64,000 bases of DNA from Chloroflexota bacterium (GTDB taxonomy: Bacteria; Chloroflexota; Anaerolineae; B4-G1; DUEL01), in the NCBI GenBank assembly GCA_014874475.1, contig JADBJJ010000027.1, positions 283,793 through 347,792 on the forward strand, read 5' to 3'. The notes beneath the pieces are model-generated. The model did no database searches and was not told the origin of the DNA. It was given only the letters and a program-made list of their open reading frames with translations. The position numbers were made by a program, and so were the translations under genes. Numbering within the stretch: the stretch's first letter is position 1; the number at the start of each line of letters is the position of its first letter. Shown one piece after another: positions 29,958 to 64,000 of this stretch.

Positions 29958-31820
29958 ATGCTGATCCGTAAATATCGCCCTCTATTCCGATCTATTCGGG
30001 GTCAGGGACTGGTGGAGTTTGCCCTGATCCTGCCGGTGCTGTTGCTGCTGATTTTTGGCATCCTGGAATTCGGGCGGATGCTATTCATTTACGCCAATCT
30101 CTTCAACGCGGCCAGAGAGGCCTCCCGCTATGCCCTCACGGATCCCGGAAACCAGGTTGCGATCCAGTATGAGGCCCGCCACCGCATCGTTCTGGTGCCA
30201 CCGGAGGATGTCCAGATCAACATCTGGTACGATAAAGGGCCGCCCACTTACCGGGGCGTCACCGACCCCAACCACCTGGTCGTGGGGGATCGGGTGATCA
30301 TAGACCTTCGTTACAATGCGGAGTTCATCACTCCACTGATTCAGCCTTTTGCTCCTTCCCTGCCCATTCAGGTGGTGGCCCGGCGGACCATCCAGCGCGT
30401 CCACGTCATTCAAACTCCAACGCCGGCGCCGCCCACTTTTACACCGACGCCGACCAACACCCCCACGCCCGGGCCATCGCCGACGCCGACGCCGGTCCGC
30501 AACACTCCCACGCCGCCGCCCAGCGCTACACCGACCATCACACCTGTTCCCAGCCCGACGCCGTCGCCCACGCCTACCCCGATACCCATCGTCATCCAAA
30601 AACCTCTGCTGGCGGGGCAGACGGTAGTCTCCGGGACGGCTCAGCCGGGCCAGAATCTCATCCTGCGGAATATCCAGACCGGTTTCCAGATGGAAACCAC
30701 CGTGGGGCCGGATGGTCGTTTCACCTTCCAATTGCCTGCGCCTCTGGTTGTTGGGCACACCATCGTCGTGCAAGGGTATGGCACCCAGGATGTCGCCGTT
30801 GTCCAGGGCGGGATGTCGACCCCCACGCCAACCCCCACCCCCAGTGGGCCCTCTCTGACCGTCAGTCCGGCGTGCATGCCGGAGGGGAACCGGAGCGTTA
30901 CCGTGCGCGGTGATAGATGGTCCACTGGAGGGCAAATCAAACAAATCGGCATCTATTGGGACGGAACCCGTGTCCTGACCCTGCAGCCGGCTCAAACCTT
31001 CACCGCTACCTTCACTATCAACGCTACTCGTGGCACTCACACCGTCCTGGCCCGCACTGAAAAGAGCAACGGACAGCCCACCGGCAATGTCTCCTTGACG
31101 AAGACAGTAGAAGTGCCATGCCAGGGCCAGTTCCCCAACTTGCGCATTACTTCTCTGCGTCTGCTGAACCCCGAGCCTCTGGGCACTTACCAGACCGTCC
31201 ACGTAGAGGTCACCCTGGCCAATACCGGCACCGCCGACATCGCCTCGCTCTTCTGGGTGGACCTTTACGCCGACCCCCGGCTGGATGTCCCGCTGGAGCA
31301 GCAGGCCAGTGTGGATTGGGTCGCCGTCAACGGCCTGGCGGCCGGCACTTCTATCACCTTCACGATGTGGGTGGACGGCGGATTCAAGACCGTGGGGAAT
31401 CACACCCTGCTGGCCATCGCAGATACCTGGAACCAGATTGCCGAGAGCGAGGAAACCGATAATGCCAGCGACGTGCTGACGGTCACGGTGATGGTGCAGA
31501 ACCCGGAGCCCACGCCGACTCCTACTCCCACGCCCACAACGACGCCCATTGCACCAGGGGGTATCTCCGGCACCACTTACGTGGAAGGCGTGCCCCAGAG
31601 CGGGGTAGATGTCTACCTCTACGATAGCAACGGTCGGTTGATCGCTTCGGTCCGCAGCGGCACGAGGGGTGTCTATTCCTTCTCCAATCTGGCGCCGGGG
31701 GACTATTCTCTGGTCGCTCAGATGCGCGTGGGGGACGTGCTGTATCGGGGGGCCAATGTGGCAACCGTCTATCCCGGTACGACCACCCAGGGAGTGGACA
31801 TTACGCTGTATCCTTTTTAG
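29958..31820 (+). CDS. TadE-like pseudopilin fused to a Thr/Pro linker and adhesin-like modules
   Basis: A 620-residue surface protein. The N-terminus has the TadE pattern RGQGLVEFALILPVLLLLIFG with a membrane helix (about 19-42), then a TadE-like region to about 150. A long Thr/Pro-rich linker (about 153-215) leads to beta-rich modules: an Ig-like region, a second PT stretch near 290, a CARDB-like domain (about 395-515; LRLLNPEPLGTYQTVHVEV), a third PT stretch, and a carboxypeptidase-regulatory/SdrD-like repeat at the end (ISGTTYVEGVPQSGVDVYLYD). It looks like a long stalked surface protein anchored by a TadE-type segment. Confidence 0.8.
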   Translation: MLIRKYRPLFRSIRGQGLVEFALILPVLLLLIFGILEFGRMLFIYANLFNAAREASRYALTDPGNQVAIQYEARHRIVLVPPEDVQINIWYDKGPPTYRGVTDPNHLVVGDRVIIDLRYNAEFITPLIQPFAPSLPIQVVARRTIQRVHVIQTPTPAPPTFTPTPTNTPTPGPSPTPTPVRNTPTPPPSATPTITPVPSPTPSPTPTPIPIVIQKPLLAGQTVVSGTAQPGQNLILRNIQTGFQMETTVGPDGRFTFQLPAPLVVGHTIVVQGYGTQDVAVVQGGMSTPTPTPTPSGPSLTVSPACMPEGNRSVTVRGDRWSTGGQIKQIGIYWDGTRVLTLQPAQTFTATFTINATRGTHTVLARTEKSNGQPTGNVSLTKTVEVPCQGQFPNLRITSLRLLNPEPLGTYQTVHVEVTLANTGTADIASLFWVDLYADPRLDVPLEQQASVDWVAVNGLAAGTSITFTMWVDGGFKTVGNHTLLAIADTWNQIAESEETDNASDVLTVTVMVQNPEPTPTPTPTPTTTPIAPGGISGTTYVEGVPQSGVDVYLYDSNGRLIASVRSGTRGVYSFSNLAPGDYSLVAQMRVGDVLYRGANVATVYPGTTTQGVDITLYPF

Positions 31821-43929: not shown

Positions 43930-45567
43930 ATGCCGAAAAACGATAATGTTCCCCGGGTCCTCATCGCCGATGATGACCCCCAGATTGCCGGCCTGATTCG
44001 GGAAGTCCTGGAACTGACCGATTGCGAGGTCTTGGAGGCCCGTTCCGGCGAAGAAGCGCTGGAGATACTGCGCCGCGAAAATGCTTCTGACCGACCGGTG
44101 GATGTCCTTTTGCTGGACATCCTGATGCCCGGCATCAGCGGTTACGAGGTCATCTCCCGCGTCAAATCCGATCCCCTTCTGGCGATCACTTCCATCATTG
44201 TCACCACTGCCCTGGCCTCCATCACCGACAAAACCTTGGGGTTGGGGATGGGGGCGGATGACTATCTCACCAAACCCTTTGACCCCCGGGAACTGGTGGC
44301 CCGCATTCAGGTCATCATGCGCATCCGCAACACGGAGCAGATCCTGCGCCAACGCAACCGGGAACTGGCCATTCTGACGGAGGTGAGCCGCACCATCATC
44401 TCCAGCCTGGACCTGGAAGAGGTGTTGAAAGCCGCCGTAGAGGGGGTTCGGGAAATCCTCCCGACTGCTGCAGGTGTCCTGGTGCTGATGGATGAGGAGA
44501 CCGGAGACATGACCTTTTACAAGGATGTCGCGGGGAGCCATCCACTGATGGGCCATCCGCTCCCCACAGAGCGGAGCATCATCCGTCACGTAGTGACAAC
44601 CGGGCAGCCGTACCTGACAAATAATGCGCCCCAAGACCCGCTTTTCTCCCCTCTGGTGGACGGGTGGGGGCTGCAGACGCGCGCTATTCTCTGCGTTCCT
44701 CTGCTGGTGCGGGAGCAGGTCATTGGCGCGTTGGAACTGGCGGATAAGGTGGGGGGGCCGTTCACGGAGACCGACCGAGACCTCCTGCAGATGCTGGCAG
44801 GCTCTGTCGCCGTGGCCGTGGAGAATGCTCAGTTGTACGCTGAGGTGAATGATTACGCTCGGGCTCTGGAACGCTCCCATGCCCAACTGATCCAGGCTGA
44901 GAAGATGGCAGCCATTGGCCGTCTGGCGGCCTCTATCGCCCACGAGATCAACAACCCCCTTCAGGCTATCCACAACACCATCCACCTGGCGATGACGGAC
45001 CGTCTCCCCGCGGAGAAGAGAGGGGAATACCTGGGGATGGCCCAGAAGGAAGTGGAGCGTCTGATTGAGATTGTCCAGCGGATGCTGGAATTCTATCGCC
45101 CCTCTAAGGGAGGAGTTGTTCGGGTAGACCTGAACCATCTCCTGCAAGACGCTCTGGCTATCGCCGACAAACGACTCCAGCATGGACATGTCCGGGTTTT
45201 CGCTCGCTTTGCAGAAAATTTGCCACCCGTTCTCGGCATCCCCGACCAGTTGACCCAGGTTTTCCTGAACATTATCATCAATGCAGTGGAGGCGATGCCG
45301 GATGGCGGGGATTTACGGGTGGGTACCCTGCTGGCCAAAGATCAGCGCTCGGTCCTGGTTGCCTTTCATGATTCTGGCCCTGGCCTGACGGCTGATCAGA
45401 TTGCTCATATCTTTGAGCCTTTCTACACCACCAAGCCCAGTGGTACCGGATTGGGTCTGGCTATCAGTTACGGCATCATAGAACGGCACGGCGGCACTAT
45501 AGAGGTCTCCAGCCAGCCGGGACAGGGCGCGACCTTTGTCGTCCGCCTGCCTGTTCCACTGCCATAG
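43930..45567 (+). CDS. Receiver-GAF histidine kinase
   Basis: A 545-residue soluble kinase. An N-terminal receiver (about 8-128; D63 in LLLDILMPG, K in YLTKPFD) is followed by a GAF domain (about 145-300). The dimerisation domain has H338 in IAHEINNPLQ, and the ATPase domain ends the protein (DSGPGLTAD, GTGLGLAIS). The HEINNPL box matches the CHASE4 kinase at 26.8 kb, suggesting duplicated modules. No clear ribosome-binding site is visible at the ATG. The likely partner regulator starts 36 bases downstream. Confidence 0.9.
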   Translation: MPKNDNVPRVLIADDDPQIAGLIREVLELTDCEVLEARSGEEALEILRRENASDRPVDVLLLDILMPGISGYEVISRVKSDPLLAITSIIVTTALASITDKTLGLGMGADDYLTKPFDPRELVARIQVIMRIRNTEQILRQRNRELAILTEVSRTIISSLDLEEVLKAAVEGVREILPTAAGVLVLMDEETGDMTFYKDVAGSHPLMGHPLPTERSIIRHVVTTGQPYLTNNAPQDPLFSPLVDGWGLQTRAILCVPLLVREQVIGALELADKVGGPFTETDRDLLQMLAGSVAVAVENAQLYAEVNDYARALERSHAQLIQAEKMAAIGRLAASIAHEINNPLQAIHNTIHLAMTDRLPAEKRGEYLGMAQKEVERLIEIVQRMLEFYRPSKGGVVRVDLNHLLQDALAIADKRLQHGHVRVFARFAENLPPVLGIPDQLTQVFLNIIINAVEAMPDGGDLRVGTLLAKDQRSVLVAFHDSGPGLTADQIAHIFEPFYTTKPSGTGLGLAISYGIIERHGGTIEVSSQPGQGATFVVRLPVPLP

Positions 45568-45603
45568 ATGAGAGCAGCCCCGAGATAAAGCAGGAGAGGC
45601 GCT

Positions 45604-46440
45604 ATGCCGGAGACCCGAACCTCTCGCATTCTGGTGGTAGACGACGAAGCAACAACCCGGATTTCCCTGGCGGAGTTGTTGCGTCTGGAGGGGTACGACG
45701 TGAGCGTAGCGGCCAGTGGTGAGGATGCACTGGATCTCATTGACCGCAACCCTCCGTTTGACCTGATGGTCGTGGATATTAAGATGCCGGGCATGGATGG
45801 CCTGCAGTTGACCGAGGCGGTCCAGCGGCGTTCCCCGGCCACCGTAATTATCCTCCTCACCGCGTTTGGGACTCTGGAAACGGCTATCCAGGCGCTCCGT
45901 CGCGGGGCCCATGATTACCTCTTGAAGCCATGCCCGGTTTCTCAGATTCTGGAGAGCGTCCGGAAAGGCCTGAGCAAACGGTATCAGGATCGACAGCGAA
46001 GAGAATTGGTCTCCCGTCTGGAGCAAACCCTTTCTGAATTGCGGGCGATTGAGCAGCCGGATGTTGCCATTGTGCCGCCGGCCCTGGAGAAAGAGCAATA
46101 TCAGGAGGTTCAGGATGTGCGCTTGGACCGGGAGCGCCACCAGGTCTGGGTTGGAGACCGACTGGTAGACCTCACCCCGACCGAATTCAAATTGCTTTCC
46201 TACCTGATGGAGCGAGCAGACCAGGTCTGCAGCCCGCAGCAACTGGTTCGCCAGGCCCAGGGGTATGAGACGGATCCATGGGGGGCCCGGGCCATCGTCC
46301 GCGTGCATATTCGGCGTCTGCGACGCAAACTGGAACCCGATCCTGCCCAGCCCCGCTATATCGTCAATGTGCGTGGGGTAGGGTATACGTTCCCCAGAGT
46401 CCCTCCGGAGTCGTCCGAACCGGAAGAGGACGACCTGTAA
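45604..46440 (+). CDS. Response regulator with winged-helix DNA-binding domain
   Basis: A 278-residue regulator. The receiver has DDE near residue 14, phospho-acceptor D58 (VVDIKMPGMDG), an NtrC-like LTAFGTLETA segment and K in LLKPCPV. The C-terminal winged helix is of the OmpR/PhoB type (LTPTEFKLLSYLM, VRVHIRRLRRKLEPD, YIVNVRGVGYTF). GGAGAGG precedes the ATG. It is organised like the regulator at 28.9 kb, and probably partners the kinase directly upstream. Confidence 0.92.
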   Translation: MPETRTSRILVVDDEATTRISLAELLRLEGYDVSVAASGEDALDLIDRNPPFDLMVVDIKMPGMDGLQLTEAVQRRSPATVIILLTAFGTLETAIQALRRGAHDYLLKPCPVSQILESVRKGLSKRYQDRQRRELVSRLEQTLSELRAIEQPDVAIVPPALEKEQYQEVQDVRLDRERHQVWVGDRLVDLTPTEFKLLSYLMERADQVCSPQQLVRQAQGYETDPWGARAIVRVHIRRLRRKLEPDPAQPRYIVNVRGVGYTFPRVPPESSEPEEDDL

Positions 46441-51752: not shown

Positions 51753-51780
51753 TTGACTTGTAGGCAGGAAAAGGTATAAT
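51753..51780 (+). promoter_or_regulatory. Promoter of the DUF4388-GTPase pair
   Basis: TTGACT (51753-51758), a 16-base spacer and a perfect TATAAT (51775-51780) lie 53 bases upstream of the start codon. Confidence 0.8.
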
Positions 51781-51833: not shown

Positions 51834-52670
51834 ATGGCACTGAAAGGTAACCTGCAAGACTTTAGTGCTACCCAGTTACTCCATCTCATCAATCTGGCGC
51901 GCAAGACGGGGACCCTGGCGGTAGAGACGCCGCAGGACCAGGCTCGCTTCTGCTTCCGCGAGGGCAAACTCATCTATGCCAGCCTGGACGGGCAGGATGA
52001 CCGTCTGGTCTCCATCCTGCAGCGGTCGGGGAAAATCACCGAAGAACTGGCCCGCACGATCCGGGCCCGTTCGGACATTAAAGACGACCGCGAACTGGGT
52101 GTATTGCTGAGCAACGCTGGCTATGTCACCCAGAAAGACATTGTGGATAGTGTCCGGAACTATGTTCTGGAGGTCGTCTATAAACTCTTTACATGGCCTG
52201 AGGGAACATTCCGATTTGAGCCCAATATGCTTCCGGTAGAGGGGCGGATCACGGTCTCCATTGACCTGGAGAACGTGATAATGGAAGGGAGCCGCCGCCT
52301 CCGGGAGTGGGAGCGGCTTCAAGAGGAATTGCCCAATCTGGATATGGCCCTTCGCTTTACCGACCGTCCCGACGCTCGCCTGCGCACCATCAACTTGACG
52401 GTGGAGGAGTGGAGGGTTGTTTCATTTATTAACCCCCGCAACACGATTCGCCAGATTGCTCAGTATAATCATATGAGCGATTTCCAGATTCGGCGGATCG
52501 TCTACGGACTTCTTCAGGCCGGATTGGTGGAATTGGTTCCGCCGGAAGGTATGGAAATCAAACCGCCACCAGGTGCTCCTGCTCCTGTTGGGTTACCGCC
52601 CATACAACGACGCCCGGCCGTCAAGCGCAGCATCGTCCAACGACTGATAGATCGCATCCGGGAGTTGTAA
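51834..52670 (+). CDS. DUF4388-domain protein
   Basis: A 278-residue protein. The N-terminal MALKGNLQDFSATQLLHLIN and TGTLAVETPQDQARFCFREGKLIYA match DUF4388 (PatA-like N-terminal domain). This domain is common in bacteria with complex signalling and often linked with small GTPases. The C-terminal region (about 185-245) resembles a winged helix (NTIRQIAQYNHMSDFQIRRIVYGLLQAGLVEL). It is directly followed, with no gap, by the GTPase gene. Confidence 0.82.
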   Translation: MALKGNLQDFSATQLLHLINLARKTGTLAVETPQDQARFCFREGKLIYASLDGQDDRLVSILQRSGKITEELARTIRARSDIKDDRELGVLLSNAGYVTQKDIVDSVRNYVLEVVYKLFTWPEGTFRFEPNMLPVEGRITVSIDLENVIMEGSRRLREWERLQEELPNLDMALRFTDRPDARLRTINLTVEEWRVVSFINPRNTIRQIAQYNHMSDFQIRRIVYGLLQAGLVELVPPEGMEIKPPPGAPAPVGLPPIQRRPAVKRSIVQRLIDRIREL

Positions 52671-53210
52671 ATGCAGATCGTCAAAATGGTGGTGACGGGC
52701 CCCTTTGCTGCGGGCAAGACGCAGTTCATTCGTTCTATCAGCGAGATAGACGTGGTGGCCACCGAGGCGAAAATCAGCCGCCCAGAGGAGCGGATTAAAG
52801 AGGAAACCACGGTGGCGATGGACTTTGGGCGAATCACGGTAGATGATGACTTGGTCCTTTACCTTTTTGGTACTCCGGGTCAACGTCGCTTTGAGTTTAT
52901 GTGGGAAATTCTCTCGGAAGGGATGCTGGGCTTCGTGGTGGTCGTGGATAGCACCCGTCCGGAGACCTTCCGTGAGGCTCGCGTGATTCTGGATACGTTT
53001 CGGAGTTATGCTCCGACGCCTTATGTGGTGGCGGCAAACAAGCAGGATATGGAGGACGCCTGGTCCCCGGAGGACCTGCGGATTGCCCTGCGGATTGATC
53101 CGGCGGTGAAAGTCCTTCCCTGTGTTGCTACTGATAAGGAGAGTGTCAAGAGCGTCCTTCTGGAATTGTTGTATTCTATTCTGGAGACAATGGACGGCGA
53201 GGAAGGATAG
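52671..53210 (+). CDS. Small Ras-like GTPase (MglA/Arf-like)
   Basis: A 179-residue GTPase. G1 is GPFAAGKT (about residue 10), G2-like TTVAMDFG, G3 FGTPGQ, and G4 ANKQD. The FGTPGQ form and overall length fit the bacterial Rab/Arf-like family found beside DUF4388 and Roadblock proteins. It starts at the base after the DUF4388 stop codon, so the pair should act together. The Roadblock-like protein at 46.6 kb may be its regulator. Confidence 0.87.
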   Translation: MQIVKMVVTGPFAAGKTQFIRSISEIDVVATEAKISRPEERIKEETTVAMDFGRITVDDDLVLYLFGTPGQRRFEFMWEILSEGMLGFVVVVDSTRPETFREARVILDTFRSYAPTPYVVAANKQDMEDAWSPEDLRIALRIDPAVKVLPCVATDKESVKSVLLELLYSILETMDGEEG

Positions 53211-53407: not shown

Positions 53408-54193
53408 ATGAGTTCCATCGTCACAGATCGGGGAGTCATCCACTATGAGACATATGGTCGGGGACAGCCGGTTATTCTTCTCCATTGCTGGCTGGGCTCG
53501 TGGAACTATTGGCTGAGCACGATGGAAGTGCTGGCCAATGGGTATAAGACCTACGCGCTGGATTTCTGGGGATTTGGTGAATCGGGAAAGAAGGGTTTAC
53601 AGTTCCGGGTGACGGATTATGTGGAAATGGTGACCCAATTTATGGACCAGTTGGGCATCTATCGGGCGCGGGTGATGGGGCATTCTATGGGCGGTACGGT
53701 CTCCCTGAGCCTGGCGTTGGCCCATCCGGAACGGGTGCAGCGGGTGGCGATGGTGGGTTCCCCTGTTACCGGAGACGGTCTGGCACTGATGTTGAAACTG
53801 GCCGCAAAAAAACCTCTGGCTGCTCTGGCATATAGCATTCCTGGGGCTCTGCTCCTGGGGGTCCGTATGGCTTCTCCTTTCCTGACCCGTGACTGGCAGC
53901 GCTGGTCGGAGATGTTTCAGCAAGACCTTTCCCGCACGACCCTTGAATCTTTTCACTATAGTATCGCTTCTCTCCGCCGTACCAACTTGCGCCCTCGCCT
54001 ACGGGAGATTAGAATCCCGGTATTGGGTATCTATGGTCGGAATGATCGGATTGTGAATCCCAACCAGGGAGAAATCCTTGCCAGCGGGATTCCTCTGGCT
54101 CAGGTTTCGTATTTTGAGAATTCCGGACATTTCCCGATGCTGGACGAGCCGGAACGGTTTCATCAGACCCTGAGAGAGTTTCTGGATCGGTGA
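53408..54193 (+). CDS. Alpha/beta-fold hydrolase
   Basis: A 261-residue hydrolase. The nucleophile elbow GHSMGG (Ser near residue 95), the acid in YGRNDRIV (near 218) and His in NSGHFPMLDEP (near 241) form the expected triad. The oxyanion region is LLHCWLGS. ACCCGAGGAGAAGG precedes the ATG. It overlaps the V4R gene by one base, so a linked role with a hydrophobic ligand is plausible. Substrate unknown. Confidence 0.9.
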   Translation: MSSIVTDRGVIHYETYGRGQPVILLHCWLGSWNYWLSTMEVLANGYKTYALDFWGFGESGKKGLQFRVTDYVEMVTQFMDQLGIYRARVMGHSMGGTVSLSLALAHPERVQRVAMVGSPVTGDGLALMLKLAAKKPLAALAYSIPGALLLGVRMASPFLTRDWQRWSEMFQQDLSRTTLESFHYSIASLRRTNLRPRLREIRIPVLGIYGRNDRIVNPNQGEILASGIPLAQVSYFENSGHFPMLDEPERFHQTLREFLDR

Positions 54194-54798
54194 TGGAAGA
54201 AACGTATATCCCTAACCGATTCGGGCGTTTTCTCCTGATGGCTTTGGAGCAATCGTTGGGCACTCCTGGCTTTCAGGCAGTGTTGGGTCGCGCCGGCCTC
54301 CGCCATCTATCTGTCTACCCGGCCGACAACCTGGAGAGGAAGTTTCCGGTTGGCCTCATTCCCCGGCTGATGACCGCTCTGGAGGAGATGTACGGGGTGG
54401 AAAAGGGACGGGATCTGGCATTTCAGACCGGACGCGTCTGTTTCCATCTGGGGATTTCCGACTTTGGCCTCCTGGCTGACGCAGTGAGCCTGGTATTTCC
54501 TCTCCTCCCGTCTCCGGTCCGGGCCCGGGTTGGGATAGAGATAGTGGCGGAAGTGTTCAACCGGTTCACCGACGGGAACATTCAGGTCCGGAAGGAAGGC
54601 GACCATTTCCTCTGGGTGGTAGAGCGTTGCGGTATATGCCAGGGACGGACGTCCTCTTCTCCTTGTTGCTATCTCCTGACCGGTCTGCTCCATGAGACAG
54701 TCCATTGGGCGATCGGCAGGGATTCCGTCCACGTCACGGAGGTGGCTTGCGCGGCGGCTGGCGGACCCCACTGTGCGATGGAGATAGACCTGGGATGA
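54193..54798 (+). CDS. V4R-domain (hydrocarbon-binding) protein
   Basis: A 201-residue protein. The C-terminal region has the V4R Cys pattern: ERCGICQGR, SPCCYLLTGLL, VTEVACAAAGGPHCAMEIDLG. V4R domains bind small hydrophobic molecules and possibly zinc, and occur in sensors and in bacteriochlorophyll 4-vinyl reductases. The N-terminal half has the helical region that usually precedes V4R. Its ATG lies on the last base of the hydrolase stop codon; a GTG 3 bases earlier is also possible. Confidence 0.8.
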   Translation: MEETYIPNRFGRFLLMALEQSLGTPGFQAVLGRAGLRHLSVYPADNLERKFPVGLIPRLMTALEEMYGVEKGRDLAFQTGRVCFHLGISDFGLLADAVSLVFPLLPSPVRARVGIEIVAEVFNRFTDGNIQVRKEGDHFLWVVERCGICQGRTSSSPCCYLLTGLLHETVHWAIGRDSVHVTEVACAAAGGPHCAMEIDLG

Positions 54799-54846
54799 AA
54801 ACGTCCCGCAGGTGAAATCTGCGGGAGGTAGATCATCTGGAGCCTT

Positions 54847-56121
54847 ATGCGGAAGATTATCCTGAGAGACCGTAGGTTTATCCACCCATTCAACGAGCCA
54901 GCCCGCGAACTGCGAGTGCTGAATAAGCCCCTTTGGCTCTATCAGCGGGACCTTCTGGCGCCGTACGTTACCCAGGAGCGGGAGGTGGATTCCTTCAGCG
55001 AAATCGGTCCGGAGCGGGTGGAGACCCTGGTCTATCGGGAGAACCTCTTCTTTGACAAGCCCTTCATTGATACCTTTATCCAGAAAGCCCGCAAACTGGG
55101 CAAGGCCTGCCAGGTTGCTTTTCCTCTGGATGATAAGGCCATCGTCGCCCATGTCCTCCCCCTCCAGCAGACTGTCCGCCGGGAGGGCGACCTCTATGTG
55201 GCGGATATGTGGTACTTTCCCCACGGCGTTGAGGAAACCGTTCGGCCACTGATTATGCACACCGAGCCCCGCGAGATGGGGTACTATCGGGTCCCCACCC
55301 ATATGTCCAACGTCCTGGGGGACCTGGTCTATCAGGTGCCCACGCGAGCGTTCCTGGCGATTGAATCGTGGGTTCATGTCTTGCTGGCCAATATTATCTT
55401 CGGCATTTTCGCTGAAGCGGCCCGTCTGGATAAGGCCATTGAGGAGAACGTCTGGCTGCAATTGAAACTCTTCTGGCGAGCCCTGCTGGAACAAAAGCAG
55501 GTCCTCTCTTCGTCCGCCGTCGTCAAAATTGGCAAGAACTGCTCTATTGATCCCAGTGCGATCATTCGGGGGCCGACCATTATCGGCGACAATGTGGACA
55601 TCGGCCCGGGCGCAGTGGTGGATATTTGTGTCATTGGCAATAACGTCACCATCTCCGATGGTTGCCATTTGATGCTGAGCGTCGTCAGCGATCGTTGTTT
55701 CCTGCCCTTCCGCGCCTCTCTCTTTGAGACTGTCCTGATGGAAGATACGATGGTTGCCCAAAACACCTGCCTGCAATTAGCGTGTGTGGGGCGGAGCAGT
55801 TTCATCGGCGCCGGGACCACCTTTACTGACTTTAACCTGATTCCCAATCCGCTGCGGACCATACGCGGCGACCGCCTGGCGCCAACGGGGATGGCCGTCC
55901 TGGGCGGATGCGTGGGACACCATTGCCGCATCGGTTCGGGGCTGGTTATCTATCCGGCCCGGACCATAGAGTCGGATAGCATTCTGCTGGCCTCGCCCCG
56001 GCGGCGGGTGGTGATGAAAAATGTCTCCTACGAGGAGAGCGACGCTCAACGCATCCCTGGGGCGACCCGAATGCACCCGCGCCTGTACCCGCGCCTGGAT
56101 GAAATCCGGAGGCAGAAATAA
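54847..56121 (+). CDS. Left-handed beta-helix protein with a conserved N-terminal region
   Basis: A 424-residue protein. The first about 235 residues have no recognised domain but contain FIHPFNEPARELRVLNKPLW and VADMWYFPHG segments. I recall similar proteins in Chloroflexota genomes, sometimes misleadingly annotated as transporters. Residues about 235-400 are a hexapeptide-repeat left-handed beta-helix (GKNCSIDPSAII, GDNVDIGPGAVV, GNNVTISDGC), as in acyl- and nucleotidyl-transferases. One hydrophobic segment lies near residue 180. It is placed between the V4R and acyl-reductase-like genes. Confidence 0.7.
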   Translation: MRKIILRDRRFIHPFNEPARELRVLNKPLWLYQRDLLAPYVTQEREVDSFSEIGPERVETLVYRENLFFDKPFIDTFIQKARKLGKACQVAFPLDDKAIVAHVLPLQQTVRREGDLYVADMWYFPHGVEETVRPLIMHTEPREMGYYRVPTHMSNVLGDLVYQVPTRAFLAIESWVHVLLANIIFGIFAEAARLDKAIEENVWLQLKLFWRALLEQKQVLSSSAVVKIGKNCSIDPSAIIRGPTIIGDNVDIGPGAVVDICVIGNNVTISDGCHLMLSVVSDRCFLPFRASLFETVLMEDTMVAQNTCLQLACVGRSSFIGAGTTFTDFNLIPNPLRTIRGDRLAPTGMAVLGGCVGHHCRIGSGLVIYPARTIESDSILLASPRRRVVMKNVSYEESDAQRIPGATRMHPRLYPRLDEIRRQK

Positions 56122-56182
56122 CGGGCACGAAGGACGCTGATGGCGCTGGACAGGATACGCAGACCCCACTCCGGAGCCTGAT

Positions 56183-57268
56183 ATGGACTCGTTTGCCTTC
56201 ATTCTGCACCCATTGGACCCTAAGGCGGACGTGGCGCGGAAATATCCGAACCTGGCCCGCTTGTTGCCGGTGAGGGCGATCCACTTCCTTTCGCTCTACT
56301 GGCCCCCACTGGTGCTTTCCCATGTCCGGGGTGTTCGCTCCGCTGCCACCGGCCGGGAAGTGGAGGGCTGGCTGCTGGCCTGTCCGCTGACCGCGCGGCG
56401 GATGCTGGAGGTGCCGCCCCGGGTTGCCTACCGGAAAATCATCCAGACCGGGCGTCTGGCGGAGCGGCTGGGGGCCCGCATCCTGGGCCTGGGTGCCTAC
56501 ACTTCTGTGGTGGGTGATGGCGGGCTGACGGTCGCCCGGGCGTTGCAGATTCCGGTGACCACCGGGGATAGTTATACCGCTGCTCTTTCGGTCCAATCCC
56601 TTCTGGATGCAGCGGCCCAGGTGGGCATTGACCCGGAGCAAGCCATCGTCGCGGTCGTCGGCGCGACAGGGGCCATTGGTAAGGCCTGTGCTCGGTTGTT
56701 GGTTCCTCGGGTGGGCCGCCTGATCCTGGTAGGCCGCCGGGCCGATGCCCTGGAGGCCACGCAGGCTCAACTGGCCGGTGAGGCTGGCCTTCCGGTGGAA
56801 GTCGCCACCGACATCGCCGCTATCCGCTCCGCCGACCTGGTGCTCAGCGCGACCAGCGCGGGGCGTCCTATTATCTTCCCGGAGCACTTGAAGCCGGGGG
56901 CTGTCGTCTGTGATGTAGCCCGCCCCCGGGATGTCTCTATGCGGGTTCACCGGGAGCGGGAGGACGTGCTGGTGGTGGACGGGGGCCTGGTCCAGACCCC
57001 TGGCGGGGTTGGGCTGGGGTTTGATTACGGCCTGCCGCCCGGACTGACCTTCGGCTGTATGGCTGAGACGATAACCCTGGCGCTGGAAGGCCGGTTTGAG
57101 GATTACACTGTCGGGAAGGAGTTGGATATAGAGCGGGTGCGGGAAATTCAGAAGATAGCGGCTCGGCATGGATTCCACCCAGCCTCATTGCATTGCCTGG
57201 ACCATCCGCTCCCGCCCGAACGGGTTCGCACTGTCGCAGCGTACCGAAAGACAGGGCCGCTGCAGTAG
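56183..57268 (+). CDS. Acyl-ACP-reductase-like NAD(P)-dependent dehydrogenase
   Basis: A 361-residue Rossmann-fold enzyme. The order of motifs resembles cyanobacterial long-chain acyl-ACP reductase (AAR): LGLGAYTSVVGD with TTGDSYTAA, the nucleotide loop VAVVGATGAIGKACARLL, VVDGGLVQTP, GCMAETITLALEGRFEDYTVGK, and RHGFHPASL at the end. AAR makes fatty aldehydes from acyl-ACP. A generic amino-acid/shikimate dehydrogenase-like annotation is the main alternative. The nucleophilic Cys should be checked by alignment. It precedes the receiver-GGDEF-like gene by 49 bases. Confidence 0.7.
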   Translation: MDSFAFILHPLDPKADVARKYPNLARLLPVRAIHFLSLYWPPLVLSHVRGVRSAATGREVEGWLLACPLTARRMLEVPPRVAYRKIIQTGRLAERLGARILGLGAYTSVVGDGGLTVARALQIPVTTGDSYTAALSVQSLLDAAAQVGIDPEQAIVAVVGATGAIGKACARLLVPRVGRLILVGRRADALEATQAQLAGEAGLPVEVATDIAAIRSADLVLSATSAGRPIIFPEHLKPGAVVCDVARPRDVSMRVHREREDVLVVDGGLVQTPGGVGLGFDYGLPPGLTFGCMAETITLALEGRFEDYTVGKELDIERVREIQKIAARHGFHPASLHCLDHPLPPERVRTVAAYRKTGPLQ

Positions 57269-58292: not shown

Positions 58293-61200
58293 ATGACGTT
58301 ACCGGTCCCTATTCGCAAGTGGCTGGAATATTTGAACCGTGACGGAGATCGTCGCCGGAAAGGGTCTCTGACCCCCCAACCATCCTCCGCTTCTGTTTTC
58401 GCGCCCACTCCCGAAGAACTGGCCATCCTGGAAGAAATCACCCACACCCTCAGCGCCAGCCTGGAACTGGGGGTCGTCCTCCGAAATATTCTGACCTCCA
58501 CCCGGCGGCTGATAGGCTTTGATATGGCGGAAATCACTCTCTGGGACTCCGTCCGACGTTGTCTGGTGAGCCGGGGTTCCCTGGACGCGGAGGCCTACCA
58601 CGCTGAAGTCGGTATGGTGTATGGGCTGGACGAGGGATACTCAGGGTGGCTGGCCCGCCACCGCCAGCCTCTCTTGATTCCCGAGATTTCGGCTCGCCGC
58701 GATGTTCGCCCCAAACTGGACCGGCCTGACCTCCCCTATCATTCTTACCTGGGCATTCCCCTGGATAGCGGCGGTGAGTTTGTGGGGACGCTGGAACTGA
58801 TCAGTTACCGCCCGGCGGCTTTCTCGGAGCGAGACCTGGCGCTGCTTCAGCGCATCGGCCGGTACGCGGTCACCGCCATTTTGCATGCCCGACTCTATGA
58901 AGAAGCTCGCCGTCGGGCCCTGGAACTGACCACTCTCTCCCGCGTCGCTACCGCGTTGACCTCCACGCTGGAACTTTCACAGGTTCTGCAGACGATCGCG
59001 ACATCCGTTCTGGAGGTCATCGGCTGCGATGCCTCCGCCATTTTTGTTTTGGACGAGACGGAGGGGGTTCTGCGCCTGGCCGCGACCCATGGCCTGAGCC
59101 CGGAGTACGTGCGTCGCTCCACCGTCCTGCCAGTGGCAGTTGGGGGGCGGGGGCACGCGGTCGCCGTCCGGCAGCCCATTATTGTGGAAAACCTGGCTAT
59201 GCACCCGACGCTGAGGCGGATCGCTCCTCTGGCAGAGGAGGAAGGGTTCATCGCGTTTGCCGACCTCCCTTTGCAGGTGGGGGAGCGGGTTATCGGTATG
59301 CTGGCCGCCTTCTTCTCTCAGCCCCACCATTTTACGGAGGGGGAGCGGGAGTTGCTTTCTACATTCGCTGACCAGGCGGCGGTCGCGATAGAAAATGCCC
59401 ACCTGTATGCCCGGATGGACCGGCACCTGCGCAGGCAGCAGAGTGTGCTGGCCAGTCTGCAACGGGTCGCCAGGGAACTGAGCCTCACCTTTGATCCGGA
59501 TCAAATTCTCCGGCGGGTGCTGGAGGAGTCGTTGCGCATCGCCGATACCCCCTACGGGGTCGTCCTGCTGCGCGACGACGCCGGTGCCTGGGGACTGAGT
59601 CTCTGCGCGGGCTACCTGGAAGAAGAACAGGCAGCCCTCCGCCAGGAATTGCGAGAGATTCCCCCGCCGGACCTTTTGGCAGAGTTGGAACGCTCGGTGC
59701 AGACGGTCTACTGGGCGGATGTGACGGGTCGGCCTGTACTGGGCCGGGAGGATGCCCGTTCCGCACTGGTGGTGCCGATCCGGTTTGGCGAGAGTCTGGC
59801 TGGTGCCCTGGCCTTGATCAGCCGCCGGATAGACGCTTTTGACGCCGAGGTGCGCCAGTTCATTGAAACCATTGCCGCACAGGCGTCCATCGCTATCGCC
59901 AACGCCCGCTGGCATCGGGAACAACAGGAACGGGCCTCCCTTCTCCACCGGCGAACAGACCAGTTGAGCCGGGTGTTGGAGGTCAGCCGTGCCTTCCGCT
60001 CTGATCGTCCTCTGGAGGAAGTACTGGAAGAGATTGCCTACGCCGTCCAGGAGAGTGTGGGCTTTAACATGGTTCTCATCAGTATCCTGGAGGGTGACCC
60101 ACCGGTTCTGCGGCGTGTTGCTGGGGCGGGTATCCCTCTTGCGGCCTTGGAGCGTCTGAAGCGGACCCCCCAGTCCTGGAAGGCTGTGCAGGCGGTTCTG
60201 GAGGACCGCTTCCGCATCGGTCGGAGTTATTATATCCCCGCGGAGGAGCAGGCGCACTGGCGAGGACGGCTGGATGTATATGAAGATCGCCTGGAGATGG
60301 CTTCTCGCCAGCCCGGCCGATGGCATCCCCAGGACCTCCTGATGGTGCCGCTCATTGGCCCCAGTGGGCAGATTCAGGGCACCCTCTCGGTGGACGATCC
60401 CCGCAGCGGCCGTGTCCCGGATTATCCGACCATAGAGGCGCTGGAGATTTTTGCCGCTCAAGCGGCGGCTGCGATAGAGAATGCCCACTTGCTGGAAGAC
60501 CTCCAGCGGCGATTGGACATACTGGCGACCTTCAACGATCTCAACCGGGCCGTCACAGCCCGCCTGGACCTGCAGGGCGTACTCCAGACGGTAGTGGAGG
60601 CGGTGCTACGCCTTATGCAATGCCAGGGCAGCGTCGCCTTCCTGCGGAATCCGGAGACGGGACGGTACGAAGTGCACGCGGCCCGCGGGCATGACATCTT
60701 CTCTCTCTCAGAGTGCTCATTTGCCCCTGGTGAAGGCATAGTGGGGGCGGTCGTTCAAAGCAAGATGCCCCTGGCCGTGACGGACGCCGCTGAAGAGATG
60801 AGGGCCTGTTATATTCCCCAGGGCGCCGTGGCCCTCGCTCCGCTGACTATAGGAGATGAGATCGTCGGCGTTCTGGCTGCAGACCGTCCGACCCGCAAGA
60901 CCTTTACCCCGACTGACCTGGCTGTCCTCACCGCTCTGGCCGACCAGGTGGCTGTGGCTGTCCAGAATGCGCGCCTTTTTGAGGAGTCGGTGGGCCGGAC
61001 CCAGGAACTCTCCACGTTGCTGGAAGCCGCCAGCGCCCTCTCCTTCACCCTGGACCTGGATTGGGTCCTCTATGCCCTGGGCGAGCGCCTGCTGAACCTG
61101 ACCGGTGCCGATGGCTGCGTCATCGCCGAATGGAACCGGGAGACGGACCTGGTCACTGTCATCTGGGAGTCCCGAGGGGAGACATCGCCGCTGGCCTGTG

Positions 61201-63938
61201 TAGCGTACCTGTCTACAGAGCGTCCCGTTGTGCAGGAAGTGCTCCTGGTCCAGGAGCCGGCCATCCTGACGATGGATGACTCGGAGGGACTGCCGCTCCT
61301 GCAGGAGCGGGATGCCCGCTTACTTCTGCTGGTGCCGATGGTGGCCCGGGGGCAGACGGTGGGGCTGGTGGAACTGGAGCGGCGGGAAGCCCGGCCTTTC
61401 AGCCCCAATGAGGTCCGTCTGGCTCAGGCGCTGGCCAATTATGCCGCCACGGCCATCCAGAACGCCCGTCTCTACGAGGAAATCCGCCGCTTCACCGAGG
61501 AACTGGAGCAGCGGGTGGAGGAGCGCACCCGCGAACTGGCCCAGGCCCTCCAGGAACTGACGATGGAGCGGGATCGGATGGAGGCCCTCTACCACATCGC
61601 CAGCCAGGTCGCTTCCAGCCTGGATGTGGGGCAGGTGCTCCACCGGACACTGGAAACGGTCGTCCAGGTAACCGGATCCGATCAGGGTTTCATCCTGTTG
61701 TGGGATTCCCAGACCAACACCCTGGTCCGTCGGGCGGCTGTGGGTGTGCCTACCCAGATCCCGATCACGGGCTTGCCCACCCGCTTCCGGCGGGGAGAGG
61801 GACTGGCGGGGTGGGTGCTGGCCCATAACCAGCCTATCCTGCTCTCGGACCTCTCCGTTGACCCGCGCTGGGTCCCCGGACCCGAAAGTGGTGAGCAAAA
61901 ATCTGCTCTGGCTGTGCCCTTGAGCGTGGCTGGTGAGGTCCTGGGGGTTCTCCTCCTCCTCTCCACCATTCCCGCTTACTTTACCGAAGACCACCTGCGG
62001 CTGGTAGAGGCGGCCGCTGCCCAGATGGCGAACGCGGTGAATAATGCTGCCCTCTACGACCTGATCCGTCAGCAGGCCGCAGACCTGGGAGCAATGCTGA
62101 AACAACAGCAGGTGGAGGCGGCCAGGAACCAGGCCATCCTGGACGGCGTCGCTGATGGCGTGCTCTTCGCGGACGCTTCGGGGAAGATTGTCCTCTTTAA
62201 CCCGGCGGCCGAGCGGCTCCTGGAGATTCCTCGCCAGCAGGCGATCGGGCGGAGCATTCGGGAGATGCTGGGGCTCTACGGCGTGGAGGGCCGTAAATGG
62301 CTGAAGGCGCTGGAGGACTGGGCAGCCCACCCGGCAGATCGCACCCCAGAGGACTTCGTTGCGGAACGGCTCCAACTGGGCGACCGGATCGTCAGCGTCC
62401 ACGCCGCGCCGGTCATCCGGGGGACGGAGTACCTGGGCACGGTCTCGGTATTCCGGGACATCACTGCCGAGGTGGAGGCCGACCGGGCCAAGAGCGAGTT
62501 TATTTCCACCGTCTCCCACGAGTTGCGCACACCGATGACCTCCATCAAGGGCTATGCGGACCTGCTGATGCTGGGGATGGCCGGATCTCTGAGCGAGCAA
62601 CAGAGACATTTCGTCAGCATCATCCGCAACAATGCCGAACGGATGGTTGCTCTGGTCAACGACCTGCTGGACATTTCCCGCATTGAGTCCGGCCGGGTGC
62701 AGTTGGACCTGCGGGCCTTGCACATCCACGAGGTGGTGGAACAGGTGGCCCATACTCTCCTGGGACGGGCACAGAGTAAAGGGCTTACCCTTCAGATAGA
62801 AGTGCCCGCCGACCTGCCGCTCGTCTGGGGGGACGGTAACCGGGTAACCCAGATCCTTACCAATCTGATCAGTAACGCCATCCAGTACACCCCGCCGGGG
62901 GGCCGAGTGACCGTCTCCGCTCATCTCAACGGGGATATGCTGGAAATCTCCGTCGCCGACACCGGCATTGGGATTTCCAAAGAGAACCAGCGGAAAATCT
63001 TTGACCGCTTCTTTCGGGCTGATGACCCCCTGGTCCAGGAGACGCCGGGCACCGGCCTGGGATTGCCCATCACTGCATCCCTGGTGCAGATGCACGGCGG
63101 GCAAATCTGGGTGGAGAGCGAACTGGGCGAGGGGAGTACCTTTACCTTCACCCTCCCGCTGGCGACCGTCCGGACTGCTGCTCCGTTTTTGCCAACCCCT
63201 CCGGGCACGCTGGTACTGGTAGTGGAGGACGAGGTGGATATTGCCAATCTGCTCCGAATCCACCTGGAGCGCGAAGGTTATCGGGTGCAGATTGCTGGGC
63301 GGGGCGAAGAGGCGCTCCGGATGGCTCGTGAAATACAGCCCAACCTCATTACCCTGGATATCTTCCTGCCCGATATGGACGGGTTCACTATTCTGGAGCG
63401 GCTCAAGAAGGATTCCCAGACCGCTCATATCCCGGTCATCGTGGTCTCCGTTGTTCCCGAACGGGAGAAAGGGCTTCGGTTGGGGGCAGTGGATTACCTG
63501 GGTAAGCCCATAGACGAGGAGCGGCTCATCAAATTGGTGCGGCAAGTGCTCCATCAGCAAGGGCTTATCCTGGTCGTGGATGATGACCGGGACACTCTTG
63601 CGCTGATACGAGAGGCGCTTCGCCGCTATGGTTTCAATGTACAGACCACCGAGCAGGGGAAGCGGGCTCTCCAGATCGCGCGCGAAACTCATCCCGCGCT
63701 GATTTTGCTGGACCTGAAATTACAGGATGTGGATGGCTATCAGGTACTGCGGAATCTCAAGTCCGACCTGCGCACTCGGGATATTCCGGTGGTGGTGATG
63801 AGCGGGAGCGTGACGGACGATGAACTGAAAGAGCAGAAAGCACTGGCCCTGGGGGCGGTGCGATTTTTGCCCAAGCCGTTTGCCATAGAGGAATTTGTCC
63901 GGGAGATTTCTGTCCTGCTCCAGCCGGCAACGGCATAA
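58293..63938 (+). CDS. Giant hybrid histidine kinase with seven GAF domains
   Basis: An 1881-residue cytoplasmic sensor kinase with no membrane helix. About seven tandem GAF domains fill residues 45-1255, each opening with an L-x-x-L-x-x-V-x-x-L helix and ending IENAxLY-like. A coiled coil near 1065-1095 precedes the seventh. Then come PAS (about 1275-1395), the dimerisation domain with phospho-accepting H1409 (VSHELRTPMTSIKGY), the ATPase domain (about 1510-1630; GTGLGLPIT), and two receivers (from about 1640 and 1758; LDIFLPDMDGF and LDLKLQDVDGY). It should integrate many small-ligand or redox inputs. A receiver protein follows by 9 bases. Confidence 0.93.
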   Translation: MTLPVPIRKWLEYLNRDGDRRRKGSLTPQPSSASVFAPTPEELAILEEITHTLSASLELGVVLRNILTSTRRLIGFDMAEITLWDSVRRCLVSRGSLDAEAYHAEVGMVYGLDEGYSGWLARHRQPLLIPEISARRDVRPKLDRPDLPYHSYLGIPLDSGGEFVGTLELISYRPAAFSERDLALLQRIGRYAVTAILHARLYEEARRRALELTTLSRVATALTSTLELSQVLQTIATSVLEVIGCDASAIFVLDETEGVLRLAATHGLSPEYVRRSTVLPVAVGGRGHAVAVRQPIIVENLAMHPTLRRIAPLAEEEGFIAFADLPLQVGERVIGMLAAFFSQPHHFTEGERELLSTFADQAAVAIENAHLYARMDRHLRRQQSVLASLQRVARELSLTFDPDQILRRVLEESLRIADTPYGVVLLRDDAGAWGLSLCAGYLEEEQAALRQELREIPPPDLLAELERSVQTVYWADVTGRPVLGREDARSALVVPIRFGESLAGALALISRRIDAFDAEVRQFIETIAAQASIAIANARWHREQQERASLLHRRTDQLSRVLEVSRAFRSDRPLEEVLEEIAYAVQESVGFNMVLISILEGDPPVLRRVAGAGIPLAALERLKRTPQSWKAVQAVLEDRFRIGRSYYIPAEEQAHWRGRLDVYEDRLEMASRQPGRWHPQDLLMVPLIGPSGQIQGTLSVDDPRSGRVPDYPTIEALEIFAAQAAAAIENAHLLEDLQRRLDILATFNDLNRAVTARLDLQGVLQTVVEAVLRLMQCQGSVAFLRNPETGRYEVHAARGHDIFSLSECSFAPGEGIVGAVVQSKMPLAVTDAAEEMRACYIPQGAVALAPLTIGDEIVGVLAADRPTRKTFTPTDLAVLTALADQVAVAVQNARLFEESVGRTQELSTLLEAASALSFTLDLDWVLYALGERLLNLTGADGCVIAEWNRETDLVTVIWESRGETSPLACVAYLSTERPVVQEVLLVQEPAILTMDDSEGLPLLQERDARLLLLVPMVARGQTVGLVELERREARPFSPNEVRLAQALANYAATAIQNARLYEEIRRFTEELEQRVEERTRELAQALQELTMERDRMEALYHIASQVASSLDVGQVLHRTLETVVQVTGSDQGFILLWDSQTNTLVRRAAVGVPTQIPITGLPTRFRRGEGLAGWVLAHNQPILLSDLSVDPRWVPGPESGEQKSALAVPLSVAGEVLGVLLLLSTIPAYFTEDHLRLVEAAAAQMANAVNNAALYDLIRQQAADLGAMLKQQQVEAARNQAILDGVADGVLFADASGKIVLFNPAAERLLEIPRQQAIGRSIREMLGLYGVEGRKWLKALEDWAAHPADRTPEDFVAERLQLGDRIVSVHAAPVIRGTEYLGTVSVFRDITAEVEADRAKSEFISTVSHELRTPMTSIKGYADLLMLGMAGSLSEQQRHFVSIIRNNAERMVALVNDLLDISRIESGRVQLDLRALHIHEVVEQVAHTLLGRAQSKGLTLQIEVPADLPLVWGDGNRVTQILTNLISNAIQYTPPGGRVTVSAHLNGDMLEISVADTGIGISKENQRKIFDRFFRADDPLVQETPGTGLGLPITASLVQMHGGQIWVESELGEGSTFTFTLPLATVRTAAPFLPTPPGTLVLVVEDEVDIANLLRIHLEREGYRVQIAGRGEEALRMAREIQPNLITLDIFLPDMDGFTILERLKKDSQTAHIPVIVVSVVPEREKGLRLGAVDYLGKPIDEERLIKLVRQVLHQQGLILVVDDDRDTLALIREALRRYGFNVQTTEQGKRALQIARETHPALILLDLKLQDVDGYQVLRNLKSDLRTRDIPVVVMSGSVTDDELKEQKALALGAVRFLPKPFAIEEFVREISVLLQPATA

Positions 63939-63947
63939 AGGAGGAAT

Positions 63948-64000
63948 ATGTCTCGCATTCTGGTTGCTGAGGACGAGAAGGATATTCGGGAACTCATAGC
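63948..64000 (+). CDS. Response regulator, truncated by window end
   Basis: The frame opens MSRILVAEDEKDIRELI, a receiver-domain start with the acidic pair, and continues past the window. AAAGGAGGAAT precedes the ATG. It is 9 bases after the giant kinase and likely receives its phosphoryl group or belongs to the same relay. Confidence 0.85.
   Translation, partial: MSRILVAEDEKDIRELI

Follow-up and report, generated by a model that had tools for sequence, protein, structure and literature searches.

Why should a predicted thioester reductase be encoded among the genes of a phosphorelay, and where does the unit to which it belongs begin and end? The question is raised by a stretch of 64,000 nucleotides of a Chloroflexota genome (contig JADBJJ010000027.1, positions 283,793-347,792; hereafter, the window), in which a preliminary description had singled out four genes between positions 53408 and 57268, encoding an alpha/beta hydrolase, a V4R protein, a left-handed beta-helix protein and a reductase resembling the acyl-ACP (acyl carrier protein) reductase AAR. 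It had proposed that these genes form a lipid- or aldehyde-producing module tied to a receiver-GGDEF protein, a kinase with seven GAF domains and a further receiver protein encoded downstream. All of these open reading frames (ORFs) appear in the ORF list of the window, on the + strand and where they had been placed, and their domain assignments are supported by Pfam and NCBIfam, with the last receiver gene running past the window end. The proposed interval nevertheless falls short of the block, which runs from 51834 to approximately 1.2 kilobases beyond the window edge and includes upstream DUF4388 and Ras-like GTPase genes that had been left out. Its gene order is DUF4388 - MglA-like GTPase - hydrolase 1 - V4R - beta-helix - reductase - receiver-GGDEF - multi-GAF kinase - receiver - hydrolase 2. 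We estimate a probability of about 0.5 that these ten genes work as one functional block in Chloroflexota, with a small lipid-enzyme unit under the control of a hybrid kinase, receivers and a PATAN-MglA-type GTPase switch.

Conservation of the gene order

A search of the named genome collection returned 80 loci, almost all from Anaerolineae, Thermoflexales, Thermoflexia or unclassified Chloroflexi metagenome-assembled genomes (MAGs). A presence/absence matrix was built from the 65 deduplicated loci with enough flanking sequence; the beta-helix gene is present in all of them by construction, since the loci were picked by that gene. All eight genes from DUF4388 to the kinase lie on the same strand in 42 of the 65 loci, a count in which the kinase was scored by a downstream BLAST match and could be inflated by paralogs. 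The V4R - beta-helix - reductase - receiver-GGDEF neighborhood recurs in relatives, larger regions show the complete order repeatedly across the class, and kinase orthologs with varying GAF content come next in most loci. A full-length match to the reductase was obtained in most of 40 relatives. The gene order is therefore conserved across Chloroflexota, as the preliminary description had supposed, and far beyond chance.

Such an arrangement could also be an old gene order inherited vertically in slowly rearranging genomes, with no functional link between the genes. Most loci do come from a few Chloroflexota families, and the counts ignore phylogeny. Against this, when every flanking ORF of the window was compared with the related loci, none stood out as conserved, in contrast to the ten genes of the block and the antisense shadows of these; the order is retained even though ortholog identity falls to approximately 50% between families, and the parts of the block co-occur when split to other contigs. 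We thus consider inheritance without function to be very improbable. The presence of a ten-gene block across much of a phylum poor in model organisms points to something basic in the control of the Chloroflexota envelope or lipids.

The reductase

The reductase is a stand-alone protein of 361 amino acids. Its strongest profile matches are to PigE (NCBIfam NF053554, E = 2.6e-67, residues 51-356, 227.9 bits against a cut-off of 850) and to AAR (TIGR04058, E = 6.2e-29, 101.4 bits against a cut-off of 449.7), both below cut-off, and residues 41-336 align with AAR crystal structures (E ~1e-26). The profile search did not place it firmly in another dehydrogenase family; a plain shikimate or semialdehyde dehydrogenase was rejected, as the corresponding Pfam matches (E = 1.8e-8 and 3.3e-6) are far weaker. 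Counted along the alignment, Cys292 (codon 57056-57058) falls on AAR C294, which carries the acyl chain (PMC7089970); PigE C296 is described as its equivalent (PMC8341465). All 79 sequences compared, AAR and PigE included, have Cys292 and Glu295, and in the GxxGxxG motif at residues 160-166 both G160 and G163 are present in all 79 and G166 in 77. Judged by these alignments, the protein belongs to the AAR/PigE/TamH thioester-reductase superfamily and its active site is intact. The likeness to AAR first proposed thus held as to homology and the catalytic cysteine, but by profile score the protein lies nearer to PigE-type thioester reductases.

The reductase domain of TamH, a member of this superfamily, used acyl-ACP and NADH and released an aldehyde (PMC9594044); PigE-dependent thioester reduction was obtained in lysate and not with the purified protein (PMC8341465). 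The window reductase probably converts activated fatty acids to aldehydes, and the genomic context of its relatives hints at carrier-bound acyl substrates. The gene of a 48% identical ortholog (L128) has a patatin gene on one side and two PlsC-type acyltransferase genes on the other, one divergent relative (L247:7985-11036) adjoins genes for an ACP and an AMP-ligase, another (L248:8827-9836) adjoins an ACP gene, and a fused relative (L124) is encoded directly upstream of a WS/DGAT gene. In a phylogenetic tree the stand-alone reductases of the block split from a 24-row clade of fused forms (100/100); the branches of PigE, AAR and the L130 protein are long, so their exact placement is unsure, and we do not assign a branching order to AAR, PigE and the clade of the window reductase.

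Since the closest named profile is that of PigE, the substrate could instead be a non-fatty thioester (polyketide, amino-acyl or another carrier-bound acyl group), the aldehyde going on to an amine or a small signal as in PigE and TamH. Elsewhere in the phylum, one relative is fused to an aminotransferase (L130) and another is found beside a thiamine pyrophosphate (TPP) enzyme (L129). The block itself contains neither an aminotransferase nor a carrier protein gene, however, and the nearest ortholog in a lipid context sits with acyltransferases, which makes this a rather improbable reading.

The AAR homology and the fused relative next to a WS/DGAT gene would also suit an alkane or wax-ester module, in which the reductase feeds aldehyde to an aldehyde-deformylating oxygenase (ADO) or alcohol to a wax synthase. 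Neither enzyme is encoded in the block, and across 21 genomes (host and relatives) ADO (PF11266) was absent, whereas the control genome of S. elongatus matched, and WS/DGAT gave no match over the family cut-off. Both routes were rejected on these grounds, and we regard such a module as extremely improbable. Of the proposed lipid or aldehyde module tied to the relay, what stands is that the enzyme gene lies with the phosphorelay genes; the aldehyde is a prediction, and the next enzymes of these two routes were not found in the 21 genomes.

Several relatives have features of their own. The L247 locus could encode a small acyl-reduction pathway comprising reductase, ACP and AMP-ligase. Fused reductases (L115:8033-10087, L117:8794-10869, L124:9163-11385, and similar proteins in L116-L127), common in Chloroflexia and some Anaerolineae, carry an N-terminal domain of approximately 310 amino acids with no Pfam match. 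In other Chloroflexota genomes, L130:7018-9567 encodes the aminotransferase-reductase fusion with a TamH-like domain order, and L129:793-4151 encodes the TPP enzyme and reductase in a PigD/PigE-like pairing.

The V4R and beta-helix proteins

The V4R protein had been suggested as a ligand sensor or carrier, and structural modeling agrees with the former. Its AlphaFold2 model (mean confidence, pLDDT, 93) matches H-NOX, the sensor domains of MopR, PoxR and DmpR, and Bet3 in Foldseek, and so the protein models as a ligand-sensor fold. Cys150, Cys160, Cys187 and Cys195 are invariant in an alignment of 42 sequences, and the C160-C187-C195 spacing (27, 8) is close to that of the DmpR zinc ligands C151, C177 and C185 (26, 8; PMC7264223), suggesting that the cysteines may form a metal site. 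Our literature search found no publication on V4R domains in Chloroflexi.

The N-terminus of the beta-helix protein, previously unassigned, models as a nucleotidyltransferase-like domain, and the AlphaFold2 model, of low confidence at residues 210-290, matches ST0452 (5z0a, 2ggo) over its full length (TM-score 0.58-0.60, E ~1e-12). The NTP_transferase family is not among the Pfam matches of the protein, and neither residues 1-40 nor the consensus at these positions contains a glycine. The usual nucleotide loop is therefore missing and nucleotidyltransferase catalysis unlikely; the protein is probably not a working nucleotidyltransferase, and its domain of this type is likely degenerate.

The GTPase, signaling proteins and hydrolases

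The GTPase retains an intact P-loop (GPFAAGKT) and NKQD motif, both with a conservation of at least 97% across 106 orthologs, and MglA structures are among its PDB matches. The C-terminus of the adjoining DUF4388 protein is weakly winged-helix-like (MarR_2, E = 1e-4, below cut-off). In the receiver-GGDEF protein, receiver residues D54 and K106 are kept and the GGDEF motif reads GGDDF, with GGD(D/N)F the prevailing form in 101 orthologs. A role as a diguanylate cyclase producing cyclic di-GMP was rejected because the catalytic Glu of the motif is absent and the degenerate form prevails; the protein is, on its motif, unlikely to be a cyclase. The stand-alone receiver has its phosphoacceptor D52 and K104 conserved. 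Hydrolase 1 carries a S93-D213-H241 triad (S93 in 108 of 108 sequences, D213 and H241 in 107) and is likely active. Hydrolase 2 is 35% identical to it, and most orthologs have Gly or Ala in place of the nucleophilic Ser; a role as a serine hydrolase is therefore improbable.

Sub-modules of the block

The four genes first grouped together do not form a natural unit. Over the 65 loci, DUF4388, GTPase and hydrolase 1 genes are present or absent jointly (57/57/57), V4R is found only with receiver-GGDEF (48/48), and receiver-GGDEF and the kinase go together. The block thus splits into DUF4388-GTPase-hydrolase 1, V4R with receiver-GGDEF and kinase, and a separable reductase, and the hydrolase-V4R-beta-helix-reductase unit was rejected. 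Co-loss of reductase and kinase, suggested by four loci (L166, L171, L174 and L206), was likewise rejected, as no such association exists over all 65.

Split blocks retain their parts at separate sites. In two genomes (G165 and G295), DUF4388-GTPase-hydrolase 1-V4R is sited apart from beta-helix-reductase-receiver-GGDEF-kinase, and G143 has the same split without V4R in the first piece. Chloroflexia have three separate sites: a DUF4388-GTPase pair (GTPase identity ~68%), V4R-beta-helix-receiver-GGDEF-kinase, and a fused reductase. Of the genomes tested for a GTPase of at least 67% identity, nine of the ten that carry the beta-helix gene have one, and none of the five that lack it does. Among 301 sampled Chloroflexota genomes, 49 have both the beta-helix gene and a reductase relative, four have each alone, and 244 have neither.

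Several observations weigh against a regulated lipid-enzyme unit. The reductase gene is present in 55 of the 65 loci and missing from the 10 others, which keep the rest, and its presence shows no association with V4R, receiver-GGDEF or kinase. The Fisher p value for the genome-wide co-occurrence is tiny, but it ignores phylogeny and is descriptive only; most of the genomes are MAGs. In some genomes (G053, G074, G105, G131 and G139) a reductase relative is present and the beta-helix gene is missing; this gene is also often absent from Anaerolineae families carrying the fused form.

These data bear on the possibility that the reductase is an ordinary passenger from lipid metabolism, supplying fatty aldehyde or alcohol for membrane lipid, and that the adjoining signaling genes act on a different target. 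The 10 loci without it and the lack of association fit this explanation, as do the G193 ortholog, located among PlsC and patatin genes away from the block, and the separate fused gene of Chloroflexia. On the other hand, the reductase gene lies beside the beta-helix gene wherever the matrix records it, often only tens of bases apart, and the two co-occur genome-wide even when unlinked. We consider the passenger explanation somewhat unlikely but still serious, because the block often remains in place when the reductase gene has gone or moved.

One genome of the same genus (G006, ~94% complete) has neither the beta-helix nor the reductase gene, and its GTPase relative is at 40% only; the block may have been lost whole, or the MAG may be incomplete.

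Proposed mechanism and comparison with known systems

If the ten genes act as one regulated block, the GAF/PAS array of the kinase would sense a cytoplasmic signal, and phosphate would pass from the kinase to its own receivers, to the stand-alone receiver and to the receiver-GGDEF protein, the latter serving as an adaptor and not as a cyclase. The phosphorelay and the DUF4388-GTPase switch could then control the beta-helix protein and the reductase through protein contact. The reductase would take an acyl group from acyl-ACP (or acyl-CoA) onto Cys292 and release it as an aldehyde, using NAD(P)H, and V4R might read out a hydrophobic ligand, which could itself be formed by the pathway. A more specific version, which we hold to be improbable, is self-contained lipid-aldehyde signaling, in which V4R senses an acyl-derived aldehyde formed by the reductase (or a lipid derived from that aldehyde) and the readout runs through the Ras-like GTPase and phosphorelay; if true, this would loosely resemble TRAPP-Rab lipid/GTPase coupling, in bacteria.

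In its parts, the block resembles conservons and AAR/PigE reductases, and in overall composition it differs from both. In actinobacterial conservons and MglA Group 2/3 systems, the genes for a histidine kinase and an MglA-type GTPase likewise share an operon (putative here), and PATAN genes are known neighbors of some MglA genes (PMC4316618). The window block adds receivers, V4R, the beta-helix protein, hydrolases and the reductase, and a Pfam scan of the first eight block proteins gave no roadblock (MglB/CvnB) or CvnC match, the last two proteins being a receiver and a hydrolase by sequence comparison. AAR of S. elongatus (PDB 6JZQ/6JZU/6JZY) shares the Rossmann-type thioester reductase fold, GxxGxxG and catalytic Cys, whereas the window reductase is distant by profile score, lacks an ADO partner and is set within a putative signaling operon. 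PigE/TamH, with the best-scoring named profile and the same catalytic Cys, differ in their fused class III aminotransferase, and the block has no pyrrole or tambjamine pathway genes.

The predicted V4R fold is shared with DmpR/MopR/PoxR, H-NOX and TRAPP Bet3; compared with DmpR-type sensors, the window protein has no AAA+ or DNA-binding domain, and the fourth metal-ligand position differs (Cys150, or Glu184). The beta-helix protein has the whole-length fold of ST0452, an archaeal GlmU-like sugar-1-phosphate nucleotidylyltransferase/acetyltransferase, without its glycine-rich nucleotide loop. In agreement with the preliminary description, no system of this composition was found in the open-access literature searched. 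The block would join two-component and Ras-like GTPase signaling to a thioester reductase whose family is known chiefly for its part in making alkanes, prodigiosin and tambjamines, and defined genes and residues (reductase C292, the V4R cysteines, the GTPase P-loop) make the question testable.

Layout of the block and neighboring features

All ten genes are on the + strand (Table 1). The hydrolase 1 and V4R genes overlap by 4 bases, and most other intergenic gaps are shorter than 90 bases, the GTPase-hydrolase 1 gap measuring 197 bases. In consensus scans, the promoter-like site ahead of the block was the best of 7 found, with 3.2 expected by chance, and only weak terminator-like sites occur on the + strand within the block.

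Table 1. Genes and sites of the ten-gene block (window positions unless a locus is named).
Feature	Position	Strand	Basis or remark
Promoter-like site TTGACT-16-TATAAT	51753..51780	+	~53 nt upstream of first block gene; 11/12 matches, consensus match only
DUF4388 (PATAN-type) protein	51834..52670	+	Pfam PF14332, E = 2e-31; first gene of block, conserved
Small Ras/MglA/CvnD-like GTPase	52671..53210	+	Pfam PF03029, Ras and Arf matches
Alpha/beta hydrolase 1	53408..54193	+	Pfam, E = 6.6e-34
V4R protein	54190..54798	+	Pfam PF02830, 34.7 bits against cut-off 31
Left-handed beta-helix protein	54847..56121	+	Pfam Hexapep, E = 2.9e-14
AAR/PigE/TamH-like thioester reductase	56183..57268	+	NCBIfam PigE and AAR profiles; AAR crystal structures
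Receiver + degenerate GGDEF protein	57318 (likely start)..58211	+	Pfam Response_reg and GGDEF
Hybrid histidine kinase (seven GAF, PAS, HisKA, HATPase, two receivers)	58293..63938	+	Pfam
Stand-alone receiver protein (start only)	63948..64000	+	continues beyond window as L136:741-1130
Hydrolase 2 (tenth gene)	L136:1167-1961, outside window	+	sequence comparison

Elsewhere in the window, two separate signaling genes (43930-46440), the first for a receiver-GAF-kinase protein and the next for a response regulator of receiver/Trans_reg_C type, gave matches of 27-33% identity only and appear paralog-like, and a protein with TadE and CARDB domains (29958-31820) is perhaps surface- or pilus-related. 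Among the related loci, a 5-kb contig labeled Archaeoglobales (L152) contains V4R and a beta-helix gene of 65% identity, and is probably a mis-binned Chloroflexota contig.

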